Positions 4,547-41,283 of a DNA stretch of 41,283 nt are shown here, piece after piece (the first letter of the stretch is position 1; the number at the start of each line of letters is the position of its first letter). Location: positions 1-41,283 of the forward strand of contig LNZM01000035.1 in the NCBI GenBank assembly GCA_002007295.1. Direction: 5' to 3'. The notes below the pieces were generated by a model that worked only from the letters and a program-made list of their open reading frames with translations, searched no databases and was not told where the DNA came from. This DNA comes from Candidatus Epulonipiscioides saccharophilum (GTDB taxonomy: Bacteria; Bacillota; Clostridia; Lachnospirales; Cellulosilyticaceae). A program made the position numbers and the translations under genes.

Positions 4547-4585
4547 AATAAAAAACTCCATTTCAATTTTATTCTCTTAATGATT

Positions 4586-4980
4586 TTGACACCCCCCACG
4601 CCTAAAGGTGGGGGATTCTAAAGTGATTAAAGGACAAATTACAAATTCATTTCTGAGCGTCCAACCTTGAAGTTAAGGGGATGTCATGACCCTTCATACA
4701 ACAGGACATATAGTCTTGTATGCTGATACACTTTTACCATGTATCCGAGATACTGAGTCTTTAATAAATTGTTTTGACGACTTTTTCGTGTCGTGTTTCA
4801 CTTTAGAAACATTTTCGGTGCATTGAATATTTTACGCTAGAAATGACTATTTCTAGCAACCGTCTATATTAAGTTGTATCTAGAGTATAACCAAAAAACA
4901 AAAGATATAAACATTTTTTGAAAAAATTTAATAGTCTTATATCCCCATAGTTAAAGCTAGGGGCTTTACGGCTTGTCTGG
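4586..4980 (-). mobile_element. IS200/IS605-like non-autonomous element, copy 1 (no transposase)
   Basis: A 395-bp repeat also found at 24892-25284 and, cut by the window edge, from 41146. One end has the hairpin CCCCCAC-loop-GTGGGGG (4592-4614). The other has a CCCC…GGGG stem around TTAAAG (4943-4963). Read on the minus strand the element starts near AGACAAGCCGTAAAGCCCC and ends GGGGGGTGTCAA, the typical right-end hairpin and TCAA of TnpB-type IS605 elements, where the guide RNA scaffold stops. Inside are more hairpins, including a perfect 9-bp stem at 4836-4857 and CATACAA…TTGTATG. No ORF of useful size is present. The structure and copy number are seen directly; the family assignment comes from the ends. 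Confidence 0.7.
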
Positions 4981-5039
4981 TAAATAAATTATTGCCATGA
5001 AGTTAATCTATTATACTTTTGAAGCTAATTTTTGCAAAA

Positions 5040-5150: not shown

Positions 5151-5189
5151 GTACAATACTATGAAATAGACTGAATGGAAATCATGAAA

Positions 5190-5230
5190 CAAAAAAACGA
5201 GCTACCCTTTTTGGAGCACTCGTTTTCTGA
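5190..5230 (-). terminator. Terminator downstream of the purine permease
   Basis: AAAACGAG (5194-5201) pairs with CTCGTTTT (5219-5226), with an inner GCT…AGC pairing. On the minus strand the stem is followed by a run of T, fitting termination of the permease gene that ends at 5268. Confidence 0.8.
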
Positions 5231-5267
5231 TGTTTGGAGTTGTTAATGCAACAGTTCCCTAGGCCTT

Positions 5268-16607: not shown

Positions 16608-18218
16608 ATGAGTAAATTTATTTTTGTTACAGGCGGAGTTGTCTCGGGGCTTGGTAAAGGAATTACAGCTGCTAGTCTTGGTAGACTTTTAAAATCAAGA
16701 GGTTTAAAAGTTAGTGCACAAAAGTTAGATCCATATATGAATGTCGATCCGGGTACAATGAGTCCGTATCAACATGGTGAGGTTTTCGTCACGGAGGATG
16801 GTGCGGAGACGGACCTGGATCTTGGCCATTATGAGCGCTTTATAGATGAGAATCTAAACAAGTTTTCTAATTTAACATCTGGGCAAATATATTATAGTGT
16901 TTTAACTAAAGAAAGAAATGGTGGATATTTGGGCCAAACAGTGCAAGTGATCCCTCATATTACAAATGTAATAAAAGAATTTATTTATAGTAGCGCTGAG
17001 CAAACTGATGTCTTGATAACAGAAATAGGTGGAACGACAGGAGATATAGAAATACAACCTTTTTTAGAAACAATAAGGCAGATATCTTTAGAAGTCGGAA
17101 GTGACAATTGTGTATTTATACATTTAACTTTGGTCCCTTATATAAAGTCAAGCGGAGAGCATAAGAGTAAACCAACTCAACATTCTGTCAAAGAACTAAG
17201 GGCTATGGGCATATCACCGGATATAATTGTAGCTAGAGCAGATGAGGAAATACCGAAGGATATAATGGAAAAAATCTCTCTTTTTTGTAATGTTCAAAAA
17301 GATTGCGTAATAGAGAACAGGACCTTACCTTCGTTATACGAAGCACCATTAATGTTGCATGAAAATGGCCTAGATAAAGTGGTGTGCAGAAAATTAAGAT
17401 TGGATACGCCCGAGCCAAATCTGTTAGAATGGGCTAGCATGGTTAGAAGAATATATAATTCAGAACTTAAAGTTAATATAGCGATAGTAGGAAAATACGT
17501 AAAGCTTCATGATGCCTACCTTTCGGTTGCAGAAAGTATCAGGCATGCCGGATATACTTTAGGAGCTGATGCTACAATAAGTTGGATAAACAGTGAGGAA
17601 ATAAATTCTGATAACGTAGCACAAATGTTGAACAATGTAGACGGTATTATCGTACCCGGCGGATTTGGAGACAGAGGGATAGAAGGAAAGATTTTAACCT
17701 GCCAATATGCTAGAGAAAAGAATATACCTTTTTTAGGGATATGTTTAGGAATGCAGGTAGCCGTTATAGAATATGCTAGAAATGCATTGGGATTAGCCGA
17801 AGCAAATTCTGCCGAATTCGATGAATGTACTCTAGATCCGGTTATTCATATTATGGAAGACCAAAAGACAATAACAGATAAAGGTGGAACGATGCGCCTA
17901 GGTAGCTATATTTGCAAGATAAGAGAAAATACTTTACTAGAAAGTTTATATCAAAAAGACCAAATTGCAGAAAGACATAGACATCGATATGAATTTAATA
18001 ATGATTATAGGTTAGTCATGGAAAAAAGTGGATTAATCATAAGTGGTGTCTCACCAGATAATAGCTTAGTAGAGGTGGTAGAAATCCCTGCTTTGGACTA
18101 CTATATTGCTGCACAGTTTCATCCGGAATTCAAAAGTAGGCCGAATAAACCACATCCTCTATTTTTAGGGCTGTTAAAAGCTAGTTTGGACCAAACAGTA
18201 TTAGTCGAAATATTATAA
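16608..18218 (+). CDS. pyrG: CTP synthase
   Basis: A 536-aa cytoplasmic enzyme that makes CTP from UTP, ATP and glutamine. The synthase domain (about 1-265) opens with [20 protein letters not shown], its ATP-binding loop. The glutamine amidotransferase domain (about 290-530) has the nucleophile Cys near residue 379 in GICLGMQ and the C-terminal His-Glu pair in [19 protein letters not shown] lies 9-10 nt before the ATG. It follows the ANTAR gene by 27 nt and is likely in the same transcript. The reading frame is complete, ending at 18218. Its last 114 bp are the template of a six-unit decayed tandem array that fills the gap to dapF. Confidence 0.98.
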
Positions 18219-18835
18219 GAAATGAATTGCTACACAGTTTTATCTGAAATTCAAAAGTAGGCCGAATAAATCACATAGTCTATTTTTAAGGTTGTGAAAG
18301 GCTAGTTTGGACCAAACAGTATTAGTCGAAGTATGATAAGAAATTAATTGCTACAAAGTTTCATCGGAGATCCAAAAGTAGGCCGAATAAATCACATCCT
18401 CTATTTTTAGGATTTTTAAAAGCCAGTTTGGGCCAAACATTATTATGTAGCAATATTATAAGAAATTAATTGCTACAAAGTTTCATCGGAGATCCAAAAG
18501 TAGGCCGAATAAATCACATCCTCTATTTTTAGGACTGTTAAAGGCCAGTTGGGGCAAACATTATTATGTAGCAATATTATAAGAAATTAATTGCTACAAA
18601 GTTTCCATCTGAAATTCAAAAGTAGGCTGAATAAATCACATCGTCTATTTTTAGGGTTGTGAAAAGGGCCAGTTTGGACCAAACAGTATTAGTCGAAGTA
18701 TGATAAGAAATTAATTGCTACACAGTTTCATCTGAAATTCAAAAGTAGGCCGAATAAATCACATCGTCTATTTTTAGGGTTGTGAAAGGCTAATTTGGAC
18801 CAAATATTATTATGTAGAAGTATTATAAGAAATTA
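18105..18835 (+). repeat. Six-unit tandem array of the pyrG 3' end (~121 bp units)
   Basis: Units start with ATTGCT at 18105 (inside the real gene), 18226, 18347, 18469, 18590 and 18714, so the spacing is 121, 121, 122, 121 and 124 bp. Each contains the pyrG C-terminal coding sequence (AAAAGTAGGCCGAATAAA and so on), the stop and a short tail TATTATAAGAAAT. Copies 2-6 carry frameshifts and stops and have no start codon. They share changes among themselves (CAGTATTAGTCGAAG against CATTATTATGTAG types), which suggests repeated unequal exchange or slippage after the first duplication. No hairpin terminator is obvious inside, so pyrG and dapF may be one transcript. Confidence 0.95.
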
Positions 18836-20157: not shown

Positions 20158-23100
20158 ATGATTATAGAACAAAATTTTTTGAAAAATATACCTATAGGTT
20201 ATGATGTTATATCTAAATTATTAAATTTTGAAAAGCAGTTATTAGAAATGGAATATAAATTAAAAGAAATGCCACGAGGGTATGGTATTTGTAAGGTAAG
20301 CAATACTAATATATTTAAGTTTAGGCTAAATAGTAGAGATAGGATTTTATTTACTTTTGTAAAAAATCGGACTACCATGAAGGATGATATAATATTTTTA
20401 AAATTTGTTAGCCATGATAATCAAATTAGAGAAAGTCACGGTTATTATGATCGGAAAAGTAAAATGAATCAACTACAATATATGCAAGTGGATATGGATC
20501 AAATTGCTGCGAACAAGTACCCGGAGGATGAAATAGATGAGTATATAAATAAAACTTATACAAATTATTTTGATATGTCTATAATAAAGGGAGTGGTTAT
20601 TAAGGACGAAGATTTGGTTAGAATTGCAAATCAAGATGAATTAAAATTTATTCAATATTTATCCGATGAACAGTATAAAGTAGTAACTTCGAAAAATAAT
20701 CAAATTTTGTTAACGGGTGCAGGGGGCACGGGAAAAACTATTGTATTATTACATATCTTATCTTTGGCTGATATAAATACTAATTCATTATATTTAACTT
20801 ATACGGATTTACTATTAGAAAAAGCTAACAAAGACTATGAAGTGTTTATAACACAAAATAATAATTTAGAGTTTTTAACTATTCGCAAGCTTTTGTCCAA
20901 ATTAGCCAATATACCAGATAATAAGATAATAACTACACCGGAGATAAGAAGATGGTTACAGCAAGAAAGCTACAAATATTCTATAATTAAAAATAAAGAA
21001 TTGCATGAATTAGTAACAGAATTAAGAGGAGTGTTAACCGGATACTTAGGATTAGAATATAAATTTGTAAGCTCTAAAGTTAATGATAATCAGAGGCTAT
21101 TAGCATTGGATGCTTATTTAAGCATGCCAGCTCAATACTCTGTATTTAATGCAGAAGAAAAAAGAGAGATGTACACAGTAGCTCTGGCGTATCAAAAATG
21201 GCTCGAACGTATTGATAAATATAGTGAAAATGAGGTGGCCAGAAAAATATTATCCGAACAAACATTAGATAAATACGATTATATAGTAATAGATGAGATC
21301 CAAGACTTAAGCGAGCTACATATTTATTTAATTAGCCAATTAGTTAAACCTAGCGGTAAAATTGTATGGGCCGGTGATATGAATCAGGCTATATATCCGA
21401 CCTTTTTTAATTTCGGACGTTTAAAAAATTTGTATTATACCTATGATAAACAACTTGAGAATAAAGTATTAACTAAAAATTTTAGAACTACTAAACAAAT
21501 TACGAATTTCATGAATCTATTAGTGAAAAATCGTCAAAAATATATCGGTTCATCCTCTTATGATTATCATGAAGTAGCATTACAAGAGGGCGTAACCCCT
21601 AAAGTTCTTAATTTTTTGCCACATCAATTTAAAAAGTTATTTCTGGAATTAATGGACAAACATTATTGCGCCGTAATTGTTGATACAGAACGGAGTAAAA
21701 ATAATTTAATAAACTTATATCCGGGTATAGCTAGACGTGTATTTTTAATACATGAAATAAAAGGATTAGAATATGATAATATTTACTGCTATGATATAAT
21801 GTCTGATTATACAAATAAATGGATTCAAATTTTAAATGGGGATTATAAGAAAAATGAGCAGATGAAATATTATTTTAACTTACTTTATGTAGGTGTTAGC
21901 CGGGCTAAGTCTAATCTATTTATTTATGAATCGGATTATGATAAACTGGATTTTGAGCCATTACGCAATTGTGAGATAATAACTGAATATAATATAGAGT
22001 TGGCGGCTTTAACGCAACAATCTACAGCCAAAGATTGGACGGAAGAAGCACGTAGACTGGAGCAAAGTGGCCATATTGAGCATTCTAAATTAGCACAAGA
22101 AAAAGCGGATCACTTAGAACAAAAGGATCCGAATGAACCTGTTAATGTTACGAAAGAATATCCGGCAGAAATTGTTCAACCTAATAAAACCAGTACAAAT
22201 AAGGCTGAAGAAATTACCAAATTGAAATTAATGGCCGAAAATGACGATATCCAAGCGCAGTATCAATTAGGCTTATGCTATAAAAAAGGTCTTGGTGTAA
22301 TTAAAAATGCTGAAACGGCTTTTGTTTGGTTAGAGAAAGCAGCCCAAAAAGATCATGCAGAAGCTCAATGTGAATTGGCGGCTGCTTATGCAAAAGGAGA
22401 TTTCACTCAAAAAAATTTAAAGTGGTATTATGGTGACGGGGCTAAACAGGATTTGGAAAATTCAATTTTTTGGTATAAAAAATCAGCTTACCAAGGTGTT
22501 TCAGAAGCGCAATATCAACTGGCTCGATGCTATAAAAAAGGTCTTGGCGTAGAAAAAAACATTTTAGAAGCAATATTTTGGTATGAAAAAGCAGCCGATC
22601 AAGAGCATACCAAAGCATTATGTAGTCTTGGAAATTGTTATGCTATTGGAGATGGGGTTCGTAAAAATTTATTAACAGCGGTGGAATTTTGGGAAAAAGC
22701 AGCTAATCACAATAATGTAAATGCCCAGTATGTATTAGGAGAATGTTATGATCAAGGATGGTATGGTGTAGAAAAAGATTTCGAAAAAGCTGTAGGATTT
22801 TGGGAAAAAGCAGCCGAACAGAGATTTGCTCCAGCTTTATTTAGAATGGCTCAATGCTATGATCAAGGTAGAGGCGTAGAACAAAACTTGAAAAAAGCTT
22901 TGAAATTATACGAAAAATCAGCTACCGATGGCTATGTTACAGCACAATATACGCTGAGCTTAATATACCAAAAACAAAAAAATTATAAAAAAGCGTTTAA
23001 ATGGTTGGAAAAAGCCGCCACTTCAAATCATATAGAATCTATATATCAATTGGCTATCTTATATGATGAGGGTAAAGGCGTTAAAAAGGATACTAAAAAA

Positions 23101-23175
23101 GCTTTCGATTTATATAAAAAAGCTGCCGATAACAATCATACAGCAGCTCAATTTATTATAGAATTTCGAAAATAA
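20158..23175 (+). CDS. UvrD/Rep-type SF1 ATPase with C-terminal Sel1 repeats
   Basis: A 1005-aa cytoplasmic protein with three parts. Residues 1-100 are small and beta-rich; GYGICKVSNTNIFKFR and RDRILFTF recall the RelE/ParE-like fold found in front of some UvrD-type ATPases (inference). Residues about 165-630 form an SF1 helicase core with Walker A TGAGGTGKT (about 186-194), Walker B IDEIQD (about 379-383), GDMNQAIYP (motif III), NFRTT (motif IV), HEIKGLEYDNIY (motif V) and LLYVGVSRAKS (motif VI). All motifs look intact. After a charged Q/E/K-rich linker (about 640-680) come about eight Sel1/TPR-like repeats (684-1005), normally a protein-binding solenoid. It is alone in its transcript and its target is unknown; a stress or phage-defence role is only a guess. 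Confidence 0.85.
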   Translation: MIIEQNFLKNIPIGYDVISKLLNFEKQLLEMEYKLKEMPRGYGICKVSNTNIFKFRLNSRDRILFTFVKNRTTMKDDIIFLKFVSHDNQIRESHGYYDRKSKMNQLQYMQVDMDQIAANKYPEDEIDEYINKTYTNYFDMSIIKGVVIKDEDLVRIANQDELKFIQYLSDEQYKVVTSKNNQILLTGAGGTGKTIVLLHILSLADINTNSLYLTYTDLLLEKANKDYEVFITQNNNLEFLTIRKLLSKLANIPDNKIITTPEIRRWLQQESYKYSIIKNKELHELVTELRGVLTGYLGLEYKFVSSKVNDNQRLLALDAYLSMPAQYSVFNAEEKREMYTVALAYQKWLERIDKYSENEVARKILSEQTLDKYDYIVIDEIQDLSELHIYLISQLVKPSGKIVWAGDMNQAIYPTFFNFGRLKNLYYTYDKQLENKVLTKNFRTTKQITNFMNLLVKNRQKYIGSSSYDYHEVALQEGVTPKVLNFLPHQFKKLFLELMDKHYCAVIVDTERSKNNLINLYPGIARRVFLIHEIKGLEYDNIYCYDIMSDYTNKWIQILNGDYKKNEQMKYYFNLLYVGVSRAKSNLFIYESDYDKLDFEPLRNCEIITEYNIELAALTQQSTAKDWTEEARRLEQSGHIEHSKLAQEKADHLEQKDPNEPVNVTKEYPAEIVQPNKTSTNKAEEITKLKLMAENDDIQAQYQLGLCYKKGLGVIKNAETAFVWLEKAAQKDHAEAQCELAAAYAKGDFTQKNLKWYYGDGAKQDLENSIFWYKKSAYQGVSEAQYQLARCYKKGLGVEKNILEAIFWYEKAADQEHTKALCSLGNCYAIGDGVRKNLLTAVEFWEKAANHNNVNAQYVLGECYDQGWYGVEKDFEKAVGFWEKAAEQRFAPALFRMAQCYDQGRGVEQNLKKALKLYEKSATDGYVTAQYTLSLIYQKQKNYKKAFKWLEKAATSNHIESIYQLAILYDEGKGVKKDTKKAFDLYKKAADNNHTAAQFIIEFRK

Positions 23176-23735
23176 GATATGTTTAGAATATTGCTTTGAT
23201 CCTAGAAATCGCTCCTAGAACGTTTTATCGATTGGCAAATGCAGAAATTCTAAAGTATCCTTCTTCATTTGTTCTGAAACCAACACTAGGTGTACCAACA
23301 ACATAAGCAAAAAGCTTTCGATTTATATAAAAAAGCTGCCGATAACAATTATTCAGCAGCTCAATTTATTATAGAATTTCGAAAATAAGATATGTTTAGA
23401 ATATTGCTTTGATCCTAGAAATTGCTTCTAGAACGTTTTATCGATTGGCAAATGCAGAAATTCTAAAGTATCCTTCTTCATTTGTTCTGAAACCAACACT
23501 AGGTGTACCAACAACATAAGCAAAAAGCTTTCGATTTATATAAAAAAGCTACCGATAACAATTACTCAGCAGCTCAATTTATTATAGAATTTCGAAAATA
23601 AGATATGTTTAGAATATTGCTTTGATCCTAGAAATTGCTTCTAGAACGTTTGCTCGATTGGCAAATGCAGAAATTCTAAAATATCCTTCTCCATTTGTTC
23701 CGAAACCAACACCCGGTGTTCCAACAACATAAGCC
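23096..23735. repeat. Three-unit 213-bp tandem array across a convergent gene junction
   Basis: GCTTTCGATT recurs at 23101, 23314 and 23527, exactly 213 bp apart. Each unit holds the last ~75 bp of the Sel1 gene, a ~33-bp spacer and, in antisense, the last ~125 bp of dapL. The first unit contains the true end of the ATPase gene; the third contains the true end of dapL. The middle unit is a relic of both. Spare dapL ends differ from the working one at several positions, for example ACACTAGGTGTACC against ACACCCGGTGTTCC. No clear terminator hairpin is seen between the convergent genes. Confidence 0.95.
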
Positions 23736-24891: not shown

Positions 24892-25284
24892 TTGACACTC
24901 CCCACACCTAAAGGCGGGGGATTCTAAAGTGATTAAGGGACAAATTCATTTCTGCTAGTCCGGTCTGACTTTTAGTTAAAGGGATGTCATTGCCCTTCAT
25001 ACAACAGAACATAAAGTCTTGTATGCTGATACACTTTGACTATGTATCCGAGACGCTGAGTCTTTAAGAAATCGTTTTAACGACTTTTTCTTGTCGTGTT
25101 TCATTTTAGAAACATTTTCGGTGTATTGAATATTTTACGCTAGAAATGACTACTTCTAGCAATCGTCTATATTCAGTTGTATCTAGAGTACAAACAAAAA
25201 ACAAAAAATATAAACATTTTTTGAAAAAAATTTAATAGCCTTATATCCTCATAGCTAAAGCTAGGGGCTTTACGGCTTATCTGG
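24892..25284 (-). mobile_element. IS200/IS605-like non-autonomous element, copy 2
   Basis: A 393-bp copy of the element at 4586-4980, with the same end hairpins, internal stems and GTGTCAA end on the minus strand. Several stems differ in sequence; the GGG…CCC hairpin near one third of the element stays pairable in all three copies. The 12 bp GCTAAACAGTAT flank it on both sides (24880-24891 and 25284-25295). The insertion sits at the 3' end of a small membrane-protein gene and now supplies that gene's stop codon. Confidence 0.7.
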
Positions 25285-25906: not shown

Positions 25907-28636
25907 TTATAACTTTATAAATTCAATTTTGGTAATTTTTAAAGCTCCAGGTATATAGTCTAATTTTAAATTATAATTTCCTTGATCCATTTTTACGTTT
26001 GCTAATTTTTTGCTAAAAGTTTTTCCGTTTGTATTGCCAACATGAATTGTGGTTACTAGAAAATCATTTAAGAGTACGTTACATGCTGTTTGGCCTAAGC
26101 CTTTTGCAGTGGAAGAATATGTTACATTAATTTGGAATTTACCACTAGACTCAAAATAAAATAAATTATCCGTATTTTCTATTTCTAGAATGTTATTGAC
26201 TATTAATTTTGGAATTGGTCCAGTTTGCGCTGGAAAATGAGTATTTTCGAACAACATGTGTCCTCTTTTAAAAGCATTTGTTTTTAGTGCAAATCTACAT
26301 ATATTTATAGCTGCTCTTTGTAGTTCGGATAATTTTAAATTTCCATTATTTAAAGATTCATGAATATTATCATGATTTTCATTTAGTTCTGCGCCGTAGT
26401 TTCCGACAGTCATGTACACATCATTTTGAGCTTTAATCATGTTAGCCAAATTATTTTGTGATCCTTCACCTTTGTTTACGATGTCGTTAATACAAGTCCA
26501 CCAGTCTGTCATAACAAATCCATCATAGTTCCATTCTTTCCTTAATATAGTAGTATTTAAATCATAATTTGAAGCACAATAATAACCATTAATTTTATTA
26601 GAAGCTGTCATAACACTGTTTACTTTACCTTCTTTTATAACCATTTCAAAACCTTTTAAATATATTTCTCGTAATGCCCTTTCGGATACAACATTATTCA
26701 ATCTACGTTTATTAGTTTCTTGGCCACTGCAAGCAAAATGTTTTACTGTAGCATCAACACCACTTTTTCTGATTCCTTTAACTACGGCAGAAGCAATTTT
26801 ACCGCATAACAGAGGATCTTCAGAATAATATTCAAAGTTTCGGCCGTTTAATAAATTATGGTGAATGTTAATACCAGGCGCTAATAATAAGTCTATATTA
26901 TTTTTTATTAACTCTTTACCTTCCATAGAATAAAGCATTTCTATTAAGTTATAATCCCAAGTAGATGAAAGCTGAGTACCAATGGGAATTAATGTTGCAG
27001 CTAAACCACCTTCCATTCGGATGCCCGAGGGACCATCTGCACAACAAATAAGCGGTATACCAAATTCTCTAAGTTTTTTGGATACGCCCCCAAAAGCAGA
27101 AGCAGTACCAGGAGTAACGTTTGGATGACTAGCGCCTTCGCCACGGACTAAAATTTCTAATTCAGCTGGCGAAAACTGGGCTATAAATTTTTCCATGGAT
27201 ATTTGATTATGACCTACTTGCTTTAGCTTATAACCTTGATCACCTGTATAAGGAATTTCATTTGGAATTCTTTCTTCTATACGTTGGGCTAAATCGATTG
27301 TTTGCGTAGGAACAGTTTCATGGTCGATATGGAATCTTCCAGCAGAATCTATAACTGGCTTTATACGCTTAAAACTCATACTTGGAGCCATAGCTTCTTC
27401 TACTTGCTTTAATACGATAGTGTTATTGATTTTAAAAGAATTGACCGGACATTGATCATCTCGCACATTATTGCCGACGTGTATAAAATATTCGCCGGCT
27501 TCTAATACATAAGCGGATTTAAATCCGGATATACCGCTATCATCAAAAGAAGCAGATCTAAAAAATGGACTAAATAAAGTTAATATTTCGGATTCGCCCT
27601 GGTTTAATAAATGTGTTTTTGCAAAAGTAATCAGTTTGCGGGCCGGTTGGCCCAATTGTCCTTGAGGCGCTTCTACATAAACTTGAACTACTTCTTTACC
27701 ATTATATCTATTTCCGATATTTGTTACTAATACTTTTATTTCTATACCGTTAGATTTAGAATTAGTTATTGGGCCGATTAAATTAAAACTGAGAAGTTCT
27801 ATTTTAAATTTAGTATAAGATAATCCAAAGCCAAAAGGATATTTTACTTTATCTTTTGCAAAAGTTTCATAATATCTATATCCAACGTATATATCATCCT
27901 CATAAATAAATTCAGTACTATTTTTATCTATATGGTTAGATAGTGAACTTTCTAAAATGATAGGAATAGTATCTGGAAGTTTGCCACTTGGCGTTGCATT
28001 ACCTAATATAACATCGACTATAGCATTTCCGCCTTCCATACCGCCATGCCATGCATATACTATAGAAGAAATTTTTTTGTTTTCCCATGACATGTCCATT
28101 ATGTTAGATACGTTTAAAATTACTCCAACTTTATCAAAATGTTTGCAAACTTGTTCTATTAGATTTTTCTCTGTATCAGTTAAAAAGAAACTTCCTTTGG
28201 TATTTGTGTTGTCATTATCCTCGCCGGCTGTCCTTCCTATTACTATTATAGCTTTCTCGGATACTTGGGCCGCTTCTTTTACGCAAGAATCGGTTATTTC
28301 CATTTCTTCATAATGTGTAGATTTTACAATATTACTTGGTTGAACTGGATTTTTACTTACCCAATCTGTATATATATCGTACAAGGTTTCGTTTACTATA
28401 ACTTTGTTTCGAGATTTAAGAGAGTTTATAAAATCCGTGCTGTACATAACCGTAACCGATCCGCCAGAACCGGTACCACAATTATAATAATCTAATTGAC
28501 ATCTTCCAAATACAGCTACTGTTTCCTGCTTTTGTAAAGGCAAAAAATTGTTATCATTTTTTAATAATATAGTTCCTTGTGCGGCTACTGCTCGACTAAA
28601 TTCTGCAAATCCTTTTAATGGACCACCTGTTTTCAT
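25907..28636 (-). CDS. Domain-permuted GH3 beta-glycosidase
   Basis: A 909-aa enzyme without signal peptide, so cytoplasmic. GH3 enzymes hydrolyse beta-glucosides or related short glycans. The domain order is swapped: residues about 1-290 are the alpha/beta sandwich normally found second (AQGTILLKNDNNFLPL, IVVIGRTAGEDND), then a fibronectin III-like part (about 290-420). The (beta/alpha)8 barrel comes last (about 480-800), with GIPLICCADGPSGIR, KHFACSGQETNKRR and the nucleophile Asp (about 711) in GFVMTDWW. This order is known from Ruminococcus and Butyrivibrio beta-glucosidases. The C-terminal ~110 residues resemble a beta-sandwich carbohydrate module. GGGGGG precedes the ATG. It lies 70 nt after the phosphorylase gene and is probably co-transcribed with it. 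Confidence 0.92.
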   Translation of the reverse strand: MKTGGPLKGFAEFSRAVAAQGTILLKNDNNFLPLQKQETVAVFGRCQLDYYNCGTGSGGSVTVMYSTDFINSLKSRNKVIVNETLYDIYTDWVSKNPVQPSNIVKSTHYEEMEITDSCVKEAAQVSEKAIIVIGRTAGEDNDNTNTKGSFFLTDTEKNLIEQVCKHFDKVGVILNVSNIMDMSWENKKISSIVYAWHGGMEGGNAIVDVILGNATPSGKLPDTIPIILESSLSNHIDKNSTEFIYEDDIYVGYRYYETFAKDKVKYPFGFGLSYTKFKIELLSFNLIGPITNSKSNGIEIKVLVTNIGNRYNGKEVVQVYVEAPQGQLGQPARKLITFAKTHLLNQGESEILTLFSPFFRSASFDDSGISGFKSAYVLEAGEYFIHVGNNVRDDQCPVNSFKINNTIVLKQVEEAMAPSMSFKRIKPVIDSAGRFHIDHETVPTQTIDLAQRIEERIPNEIPYTGDQGYKLKQVGHNQISMEKFIAQFSPAELEILVRGEGASHPNVTPGTASAFGGVSKKLREFGIPLICCADGPSGIRMEGGLAATLIPIGTQLSSTWDYNLIEMLYSMEGKELIKNNIDLLLAPGINIHHNLLNGRNFEYYSEDPLLCGKIASAVVKGIRKSGVDATVKHFACSGQETNKRRLNNVVSERALREIYLKGFEMVIKEGKVNSVMTASNKINGYYCASNYDLNTTILRKEWNYDGFVMTDWWTCINDIVNKGEGSQNNLANMIKAQNDVYMTVGNYGAELNENHDNIHESLNNGNLKLSELQRAAINICRFALKTNAFKRGHMLFENTHFPAQTGPIPKLIVNNILEIENTDNLFYFESSGKFQINVTYSSTAKGLGQTACNVLLNDFLVTTIHVGNTNGKTFSKKLANVKMDQGNYNLKLDYIPGALKITKIEFIKL

Positions 28637-41105: not shown

Positions 41106-41165
41106 ATGCAAAAAGTTATACTTGGAATAGATAGATTTCATGAATTTGACACTCCTCACGCCTAA
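41106..41165 (+). pseudogene. Gene interrupted by an element after 14 codons (possible NamZ/DUF1343 start)
   Basis: AGGAG 9 nt before an ATG opens MQKVILGIDRFHEF. After codon 14 the sequence enters element copy 3, adding DTPHA and a stop at 41163-41165. The opening fits the start of DUF1343/NamZ exo-muramidases (GID… then a helix), but 14 residues are too few to be sure. The rest of the gene, if present, lies beyond the window after the element. Confidence 0.5.
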
Positions 41166-41283
41166 AGGCGGGGGATTCTAAAGTGATTAAAGGACATACA
41201 AATTCATTTCTGAGCGTCCAACCTTTAGTTATGGGTATGCCATTACCCTTCATACAACAGGACATATAGTCTTATATGCTGAT
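41146..41283 (-). mobile_element. IS200/IS605-like non-autonomous element, copy 3 (cut by window edge)
   Basis: The first 138 bp match copies 1 and 2: TTGACACTCCTCACGCC, the CTAAAG-loop hairpin, then ATTCTAAAGTGATTAAAGGA and the CATACAACAGGACATATAG stem. It is inserted in the disrupted gene at 41106. The GGG…CCC hairpin here reads GGGTA-TGCCAT-TACCC; its sequence differs from the other copies but still pairs. Confidence 0.75.

Follow-up and report, generated by a model that had tools for sequence, protein, structure and literature searches.

Positions 4586–4979 of the window, by which we mean the whole 41,283-nucleotide contig analyzed here (contig C35 of genome G000, Candidatus Epulonipiscioides saccharophilum), hold a repeated, strongly folded sequence without a gene, which raises the question of how such a sequence moves and what its RNA could do. 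A first-pass annotation, made from the sequence letters, had described three gene-less, folded copies of about 394 bp, and placed the first at 4586–4980. BLAST searches, a scan for open reading frames, and folding against shuffled sequences confirmed this description. The start of the element at 4586 was borne out, whereas its real end is at 4979, and positions 4980–4983 belong to the flanking target. The copies in the window are:

4586–4979, minus strand: mini-transposon copy 1, with IS608-type ends and without a protein gene
24892–25284, minus strand: mini-transposon copy 2, 88% identical, with the TTAC site changed to TAGC
25121–25182, minus strand: 5' domain of copy 2
41146–41283, minus strand: mini-transposon copy 3, right-end (RE) half only; the contig end falls inside the element

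The mini-element contains no open reading frame of 100 amino acids. The minus-strand RNA of positions 4586–4879 folds with an energy of -75.2 kcal/mol, compared with -58.2 ± 4.5 kcal/mol for shuffled sequences (z = -3.75). Copy 3 is incomplete because the window is an entire contig that stops within the element, and many other contigs of the G000 assembly (3.19 Mb, 166 contigs, 92% complete) also break within a copy. The 54 BLAST matches in G000 correspond to about 40 separate places, many of them at contig ends, and include ten full-length copies, namely the window copy and nine others at 86–92% identity. The boundaries are sharp: homology ends with TCAA at one boundary and with TTAC at the opposite one, and the flanks are unrelated. 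The middle part of the window element had no BLAST match in phage and plasmid records. Matches to Campylobacter and Helicobacter plasmids were discarded as the shared left-end (LE) region, which was located beside tnpA where inspected.

The window contains further repeats. A unit of about 121 bp occurs in six tandem copies at 18105–18835, between the genes for CTP synthase and diaminopimelate epimerase. Three direct repeats of 213 bp, 93–98% identical, at 23096–23734 extend from the end of a Sel1-repeat reading frame, past its stop codon, into the 3' end of a converging aminotransferase gene. A different interspersed repeat, which includes a hairpin resembling a terminator (ACGAGCTACCCTTTTTGGAGCACTCGT), adjoins the mini-element at about 5180–5260 of the window and at about 2160–2270 of locus L031.

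Read on the minus strand, the copies start with TTAC followed by CAGACAAGCCGTAAAG and a hairpin, and finish with GAAT, a hairpin, and TGTCAA. At the LE, the boundary falls between TTAC and a C, after which come AAAG and its hairpin; at the RE, GAAT and a hairpin precede TCAA, directly behind which the element ends. In copy 1 these features are positioned as follows:

4980–4983, minus strand: flanking target or TAM, TTAC (GTAA on the plus strand); TTAC is present at 21 of 22 LE flanks in G000
4943–4967, minus strand: LE, with the guide sequence AAAG at 4964–4967 and a subterminal hairpin at 4943–4963
4586–4618, minus strand: RE, with GAAT at 4615–4618, a hairpin, and the TCAA cleavage site at 4586–4589

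The signals of IS608 are TTAC (CL), AAAG (GL), GAAT (GR), and TCAA (CR) (PMC5934647), and all four are found in the mini-element, arranged as an AAAG-hairpin LE and a GAAT-hairpin-TCAA RE. The flanks of the filled sites, with TTAC on the LE side and unrelated sequences on the RE side, agree with insertion 3' to TTAC without target duplication. These features support the assignment of the mini-element as a non-autonomous member of the IS608 group of the IS200/IS605 family. It has no Y1 transposase (TnpA) of its own, as it lacks a reading frame and G000 contains only a decayed TnpA fragment, and it is therefore a derivative rather than an autonomous insertion sequence.

A full-length relative that has both ends in common with the mini-element was found in contig C50 of genome G008 (locus L053). 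It is organized in the order LE, TnpA of 146 residues, TnpB of 347 residues, and RE. The TnpA matches the Pfam family Y1_Tnp with an E-value of 1.9e-46, and the TnpB matches Cas12f1-like_TNB (1.3e-25) and OrfB_IS605 (8.9e-9). Together with the ends and the TTAC flanks, this relative upholds the earlier description of the element as IS605-like and TnpB-less. The first-pass annotation would have been contradicted by a lack of TnpA or TnpB with matching ends in the genome combined with stems that do not covary. Intact TnpA or TnpB was indeed not found in the G000 assembly, which is not proof of their absence given its completeness of 92% and its breaks at repeats, but matching proteins are present in relatives, and the stems covary. 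Contig C75 of G000 holds a remnant of about 600 bp with scraps of TnpA and TnpB within matching ends, and contig C111 holds one frame-broken TnpB tail.

The RE-proximal part of the mini-element can be aligned with the DNA that follows tnpB in full-length elements. Its components in copy 1 are:

4586–4745, minus strand: omegaRNA scaffold, with hairpins at 4725–4745 and 4695–4722 and with homology to the sequence that follows tnpB in L053, L133, and L134
4769–4799, minus strand: segment of about 30 nt matching the tnpB coding region of the full-length relative (codons for TTRTSRKNNK), 90% identity, and 100% in the G008 mini-element
4795–4810, minus strand: near-invariant GTTTC..GAAAC segment, 0.024 differences per site across five species
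4566–4585, minus strand: would-be guide of copy 1, AATCATTAAGAGAATAAAAT, in the host flank

Nucleotides 127–296 of the window-copy RNA match the stretch from the last ~20 nt of tnpB through the RE in G008 at 75% identity, and the mini-element of G008 does so at 92%; the same region is matched in other tnpB loci. The 3' ~160 nt of the mini-element are the omegaRNA scaffold seen downstream of tnpB. The GTTTC..GAAAC segment is also complementary to the sequence directly preceding the GAAT of the RE. In an alignment of mini-element scaffolds with tnpB-borne scaffolds (A5), 88% of the pair cells are standard pairs, and 14 of 27 pairs show compensatory changes. Cells changed on both sides number 51, whereas shuffles have 16 and slid controls no more than 9, which indicates selection on the secondary structure. 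The two inner hairpins covary best and are paired in 92–96% of cells. The first-pass annotation had singled out a GGG…CCC hairpin that keeps pairing despite sequence change; this holds more weakly for the RE hairpin, paired in 71% of cells, and strongly for the inner stems. When all 21 aligned mini-elements were folded together, covariation scored poorly, owing to the modular structure and to stems rich in insertions and deletions; tests helix by helix were successful. The would-be guides, that is, the flanks of the RE, differ in all of the 27 copies compared in G000. The earlier proposal that an omegaRNA ends on the minus strand and continues into copy-specific guides holds because of the homology to tnpB loci, the covariation in A5, and the differing guides. 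The RNA of the mini-element, for which a promoter is predicted, may be transcribed, bound by TnpB, and used to guide TAM-dependent cleavage.

Upstream of the scaffold, the minus-strand unit contains two features that were absent from the first-pass annotation:

4818–4879, minus strand: conserved 5' RNA domain, with helices P1 and P2 and invariant GUU and UAAAA joints (covariance models R1 and R2)
4884–4911, minus strand: predicted promoter of the minus-strand RNA, with -10 TATACT at 4884–4889 and a weak -35 in the window copy

Across five species, the 62-nt domain has 0.12 differences per site and the adjoining 25 nt have 0.02, compared with 0.39 and 0.30 in the promoter stretch and a linker, respectively. 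In a plain MAFFT alignment of 36 diverse sequences of the domain (A4), P1 and P2 are paired in 97–98% of cells, and the outer helix P0 is less regular (59%). Compensatory changes occur in 14 of the 18 pairs of A4 and in 9 of 13 pairs of alignment A3, with far fewer changed cells in the slid and shuffled controls of both; for the 18-pair structure the counts are 113 cells changed on both sides, 34 in shuffles, and at most 42 in slid controls. The invariant positions are GTT in joint 1/2 and TAAAA in joint 2/1. The motif GCGAAAACCAAGC or close variants of it are present in many P2 loops (L184, L197, L204, L206, L174, L254, L266, L272) and after P2 in L038, L071, and L214, and pairing of its AACC with the conserved GGUU joint is conceivable. 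Copies from G014 and G009 (L036, L037, L050, L054, L065–L067) have two extra hairpins of 25 and 28 nt flanking the joint of P1 and P2, and were misaligned when the whole middle segment was aligned by MAFFT.

Sigma-70-like boxes are located upstream of the domain and end 4–38 nt before it. Promoter predictions exceeded dinucleotide shuffles at p < 0.05 in 15 of 32 families, with a combined Fisher value of 3.5e-13 for families that are related and not fully independent. Stronger promoters are predicted in relatives, for example TTGCCA-17-TATAAT and TTGACA-18-TAAAAT. In family f61 and in type 1 of G484, the RNA may start earlier, because inspection by eye found a better promoter about 110–160 nt upstream. 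The 5' domain matches no family in Rfam 15. At gathering scores, the window contains nothing from Rfam besides two tRNAs, and thus no RAGATH-18 (RF03064); weak matches to RsaD and a flavivirus element were dismissed as chance. An origin as an IStron was rejected for lack of an Rfam group I intron match.

The 5' domain is more widespread than the mini-element family of the window, with model matches in Clostridia and in other Bacillota. The 62-nt covariance model R1 found 31 copies in G000 and matched the known family, a second mini-element family, and, singly, sequences outside the family. The second family (contigs C16, C65, C139, C149, and C156 of G000; L178–L182) has other ends and the same 5' domain, and is matched in scaffold and LE by a TnpB locus of G003 (L241, 88%). 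The refined model R2 had matches in 16 of 392 genomes of the order, 9 of 391 of the class, and 10 of 398 of the phylum, of which those used in training are not independent. Independent of the training are the matches in G454, G481, G427, G484, G413, G521, G356, G365, G338, G199, G852, G984, G1056, G1074, G1053, and G931. A scan with an exact pattern detected eight stretches of the domain in viral contigs, and the domain also occurs in a plasmid record that bears the name Klebsiella grimontii; a Bacillaceae record has a diverged match. The genes around the element in the Klebsiella record (CP079755.1, 20322–25466; L274) resemble those of a Bacillus-type bacterium, possibly owing to contamination or mislabelling.

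The sequence after the domain provides an independent check because it is outside the model. In most of the independent hits, the domain is followed by 100–300 nt of other sequence and then by a TnpB-type right end, immediately past which copies from the same genome diverge. The right ends are:

GTAGTTCAC: G484 (two families), G454, G427, G521, G1074
GGTAGTTCA: G356, G365
GGGAGTACGTCAC: G413
GTGTCAA: G338
GCGTCAA: G852
ATGTCAA: G1053
GTCGTCAC: G931
GAGGTTCAC: G984
GGCTCAG: G1056

In G040 and G199, the partner of the domain is RAGATH-18, the published scaffold of the guide RNAs of IS607 TnpB (PMC11061315), with matches above the gathering score in L184, L194, and L197, all of which contain the domain. 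Outside the home family, the number of elements in which the domain is followed by a TnpB-type RE or by RAGATH-18 is well over 20. By BLAST, about ten subfamilies have, downstream of tnpB, DNA that matches the part behind the domain, often within the same genome (G484 with L221, G427 with L234 and L247, G199 with L240 and L250, G356 with L246). The domain itself had no BLAST match in tnpB loci, and R2 had no hits in 42 of them, so its derivation from a full-length element was rejected. Of 60 domain loci searched by tblastn with TnpB proteins, six contain pieces of tnpB. In four of them, the piece consists of the final ~20–40 codons, which the guide RNA overlaps; a fifth has a comparably short scrap, and at the sixth a mini-element has inserted into a tnpB gene of G484 (L220).

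We consider that the mini-element is probably a satellite transposon of the IS608 type that is moved by TnpA in trans and encodes a guide RNA for TnpB in trans. It has no protein gene, its LE and RE carry every cis-signal used by an IS608-like TnpA, and its minus-strand unit comprises a promoter-like site, the 5' domain, the omegaRNA scaffold, and the RE, next to host sequence that differs from copy to copy. Where tnpB is present, the right end of the element gives rise to the guide RNA, which overlaps tnpB or follows it. In the mini-element, the promoter and the dedicated 5' domain would take the place of tnpB and its transcript. Transcription of the unit would yield an RNA of about 290 nt plus the guide. 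The TnpA of autonomous relatives would excise and insert the mini-element, and their TnpB could take up its RNA. The loaded TnpB would cut the resealed site, TTAC plus flank, left by excision, and repair from the sister copy would restore the element, a "peel, paste and copy" cycle as proposed for ISDra2 (PMC8612924). The probable role of the 5' domain is to define or shield the 5' end of the RNA, or to bind a shared factor. Against this reading stand the weak promoter of the window copy, the lack of intact TnpA and TnpB in G000, the drift of the copies, and the RE hairpin, paired in 71% of cells. Copies within G000 have diverged by 0.091 in the 5' domain and by 0.097 and 0.081 at the ends, and individual copies therefore look unconstrained after insertion. 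Such similar drift is expected if copies decay once inserted and selection acts on the active lineage. The elements of G000 may now be stranded because no intact tnpA or tnpB was seen there.

The same observations could be explained by a plain PATE or MITE, in which only the DNA ends matter, the scaffold is kept as it overlaps the RE required by TnpA, and no RNA functions. Ends-only IS605 elements of this kind are known, for example one of 271 nt in Halanaerobium, and drifting G000 copies and the ends-only copies of 153–258 nt in G009 and G014 fit the explanation. However, short end hairpins suffice for TnpA, yet the inner helices of the scaffold and the distant 62-nt domain are paired through compensatory changes, the domain is found again beside unrelated ends, and promoter sites have been kept, so we regard this explanation as unlikely. 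Slightly less likely again is a decoy or regulator RNA that binds TnpB, or the mRNA of TnpA, and limits or steers TnpB in the manner of a TldR-like regulator, with no cutting for retention. The 5' extension missing from tnpB loci could change activity, and a 10-nt complement to the RE-proximal strand, within the near-invariant segment, could compete with folding of the scaffold. In contrast, guides taken from random host flanks, different in all 27 cases, fit self-retention and not fixed regulatory targets.

A further, improbable reading takes the 5' domain as an RNA in its own right, cis-regulatory (riboswitch-like) or of the host, that was captured by mini-elements and is unrelated in function to TnpB. 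Some hits without a transposon end would suit such an RNA: they precede WXG100 genes in G000 (C24) and G003 (C56), a motA-like gene in G010 (C12), and a gene for a secreted protein in G412. There are few such solo hits, and they may represent copies that decayed or were domesticated, whereas most hits outside the home family are in guide-RNA mini-elements, with several copies per genome. The domains just upstream of the WXG100/EsxA-like genes (L175, about 27921–27972 of G000 C24; L186, 5427–5488 of G003 C56) have no transposon end behind them, and each may be the remains of a copy, a leader that was domesticated, or the motif in use by the host.

Gene-less IS605 derivatives (PATEs), IStrons without reading frames, and RAGATH-18 copies without TnpB are already known. 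The mini-element shares with IS608 the TTAC target, the AAAG and GAAT guide tetranucleotides, the TCAA right cleavage site, and the subterminal hairpins (PMC5934647), but it lacks tnpA and tnpB and has gained a promoter and a 5' RNA domain. Like the PATEs of Halanaerobium (PMC7290912), it has IS605 ends, only a scrap of tnpB, and no gene; unlike them, it is an organized, multi-copy RNA unit with a promoter and a conserved 5' domain, kept across genera. The TnpB omegaRNA or reRNA of ISDra2 (PMC8612924) is likewise a right-end guide RNA with a scaffold, an RE hairpin, and a flank-derived guide, whereas the RNA of the mini-element is not made with tnpB and has the additional domain of about 62 nt. 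The reRNA RAGATH-18 of IS607 TnpB (RF03064, PMC11061315) is joined to the same domain in L184, L194, and L197; the scaffold of the window element is instead of the IS605/IS608 type, and the domain is positioned upstream of the described 5' flank of RAGATH-18. ORF-less copies of the IStron BcISt1 (PMC4227781) are also IS605-type elements that spread with an RNA, which in their case is a group I intron. The open-access literature searched yielded no account of omegaRNA mini-elements that lack TnpB and have a 5' domain of this kind. A 5' domain that is shared by IS605 and IS607 scaffolds and marks a phylum-wide class of mini-elements was found in neither Rfam 15 nor that literature.

On balance, we lean towards the existence of a Bacillota-wide class of gene-less satellites that would have their own promoter, supply guide RNAs to TnpB in trans, and be unified by an apparently undescribed folded 5' domain placed on several IS605-type scaffolds and on the IS607-type scaffold RAGATH-18. 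If this is true, guide RNAs of TnpB have spread apart from the nuclease gene across a phylum, and satellites of transposons form a second layer of parasitism. This could help to explain why 36% of RAGATH-18 copies are reported not to adjoin TnpB (PMC11061315). The 5' domain would be a new structured RNA, with definition of the 5' end, stability, and binding of TnpB or a host factor as candidate roles, and could help in building stable standalone omegaRNAs. The mini-elements would then provide natural guide RNAs that work in trans, in parallel to the separation of effector and guide in CRISPR systems.
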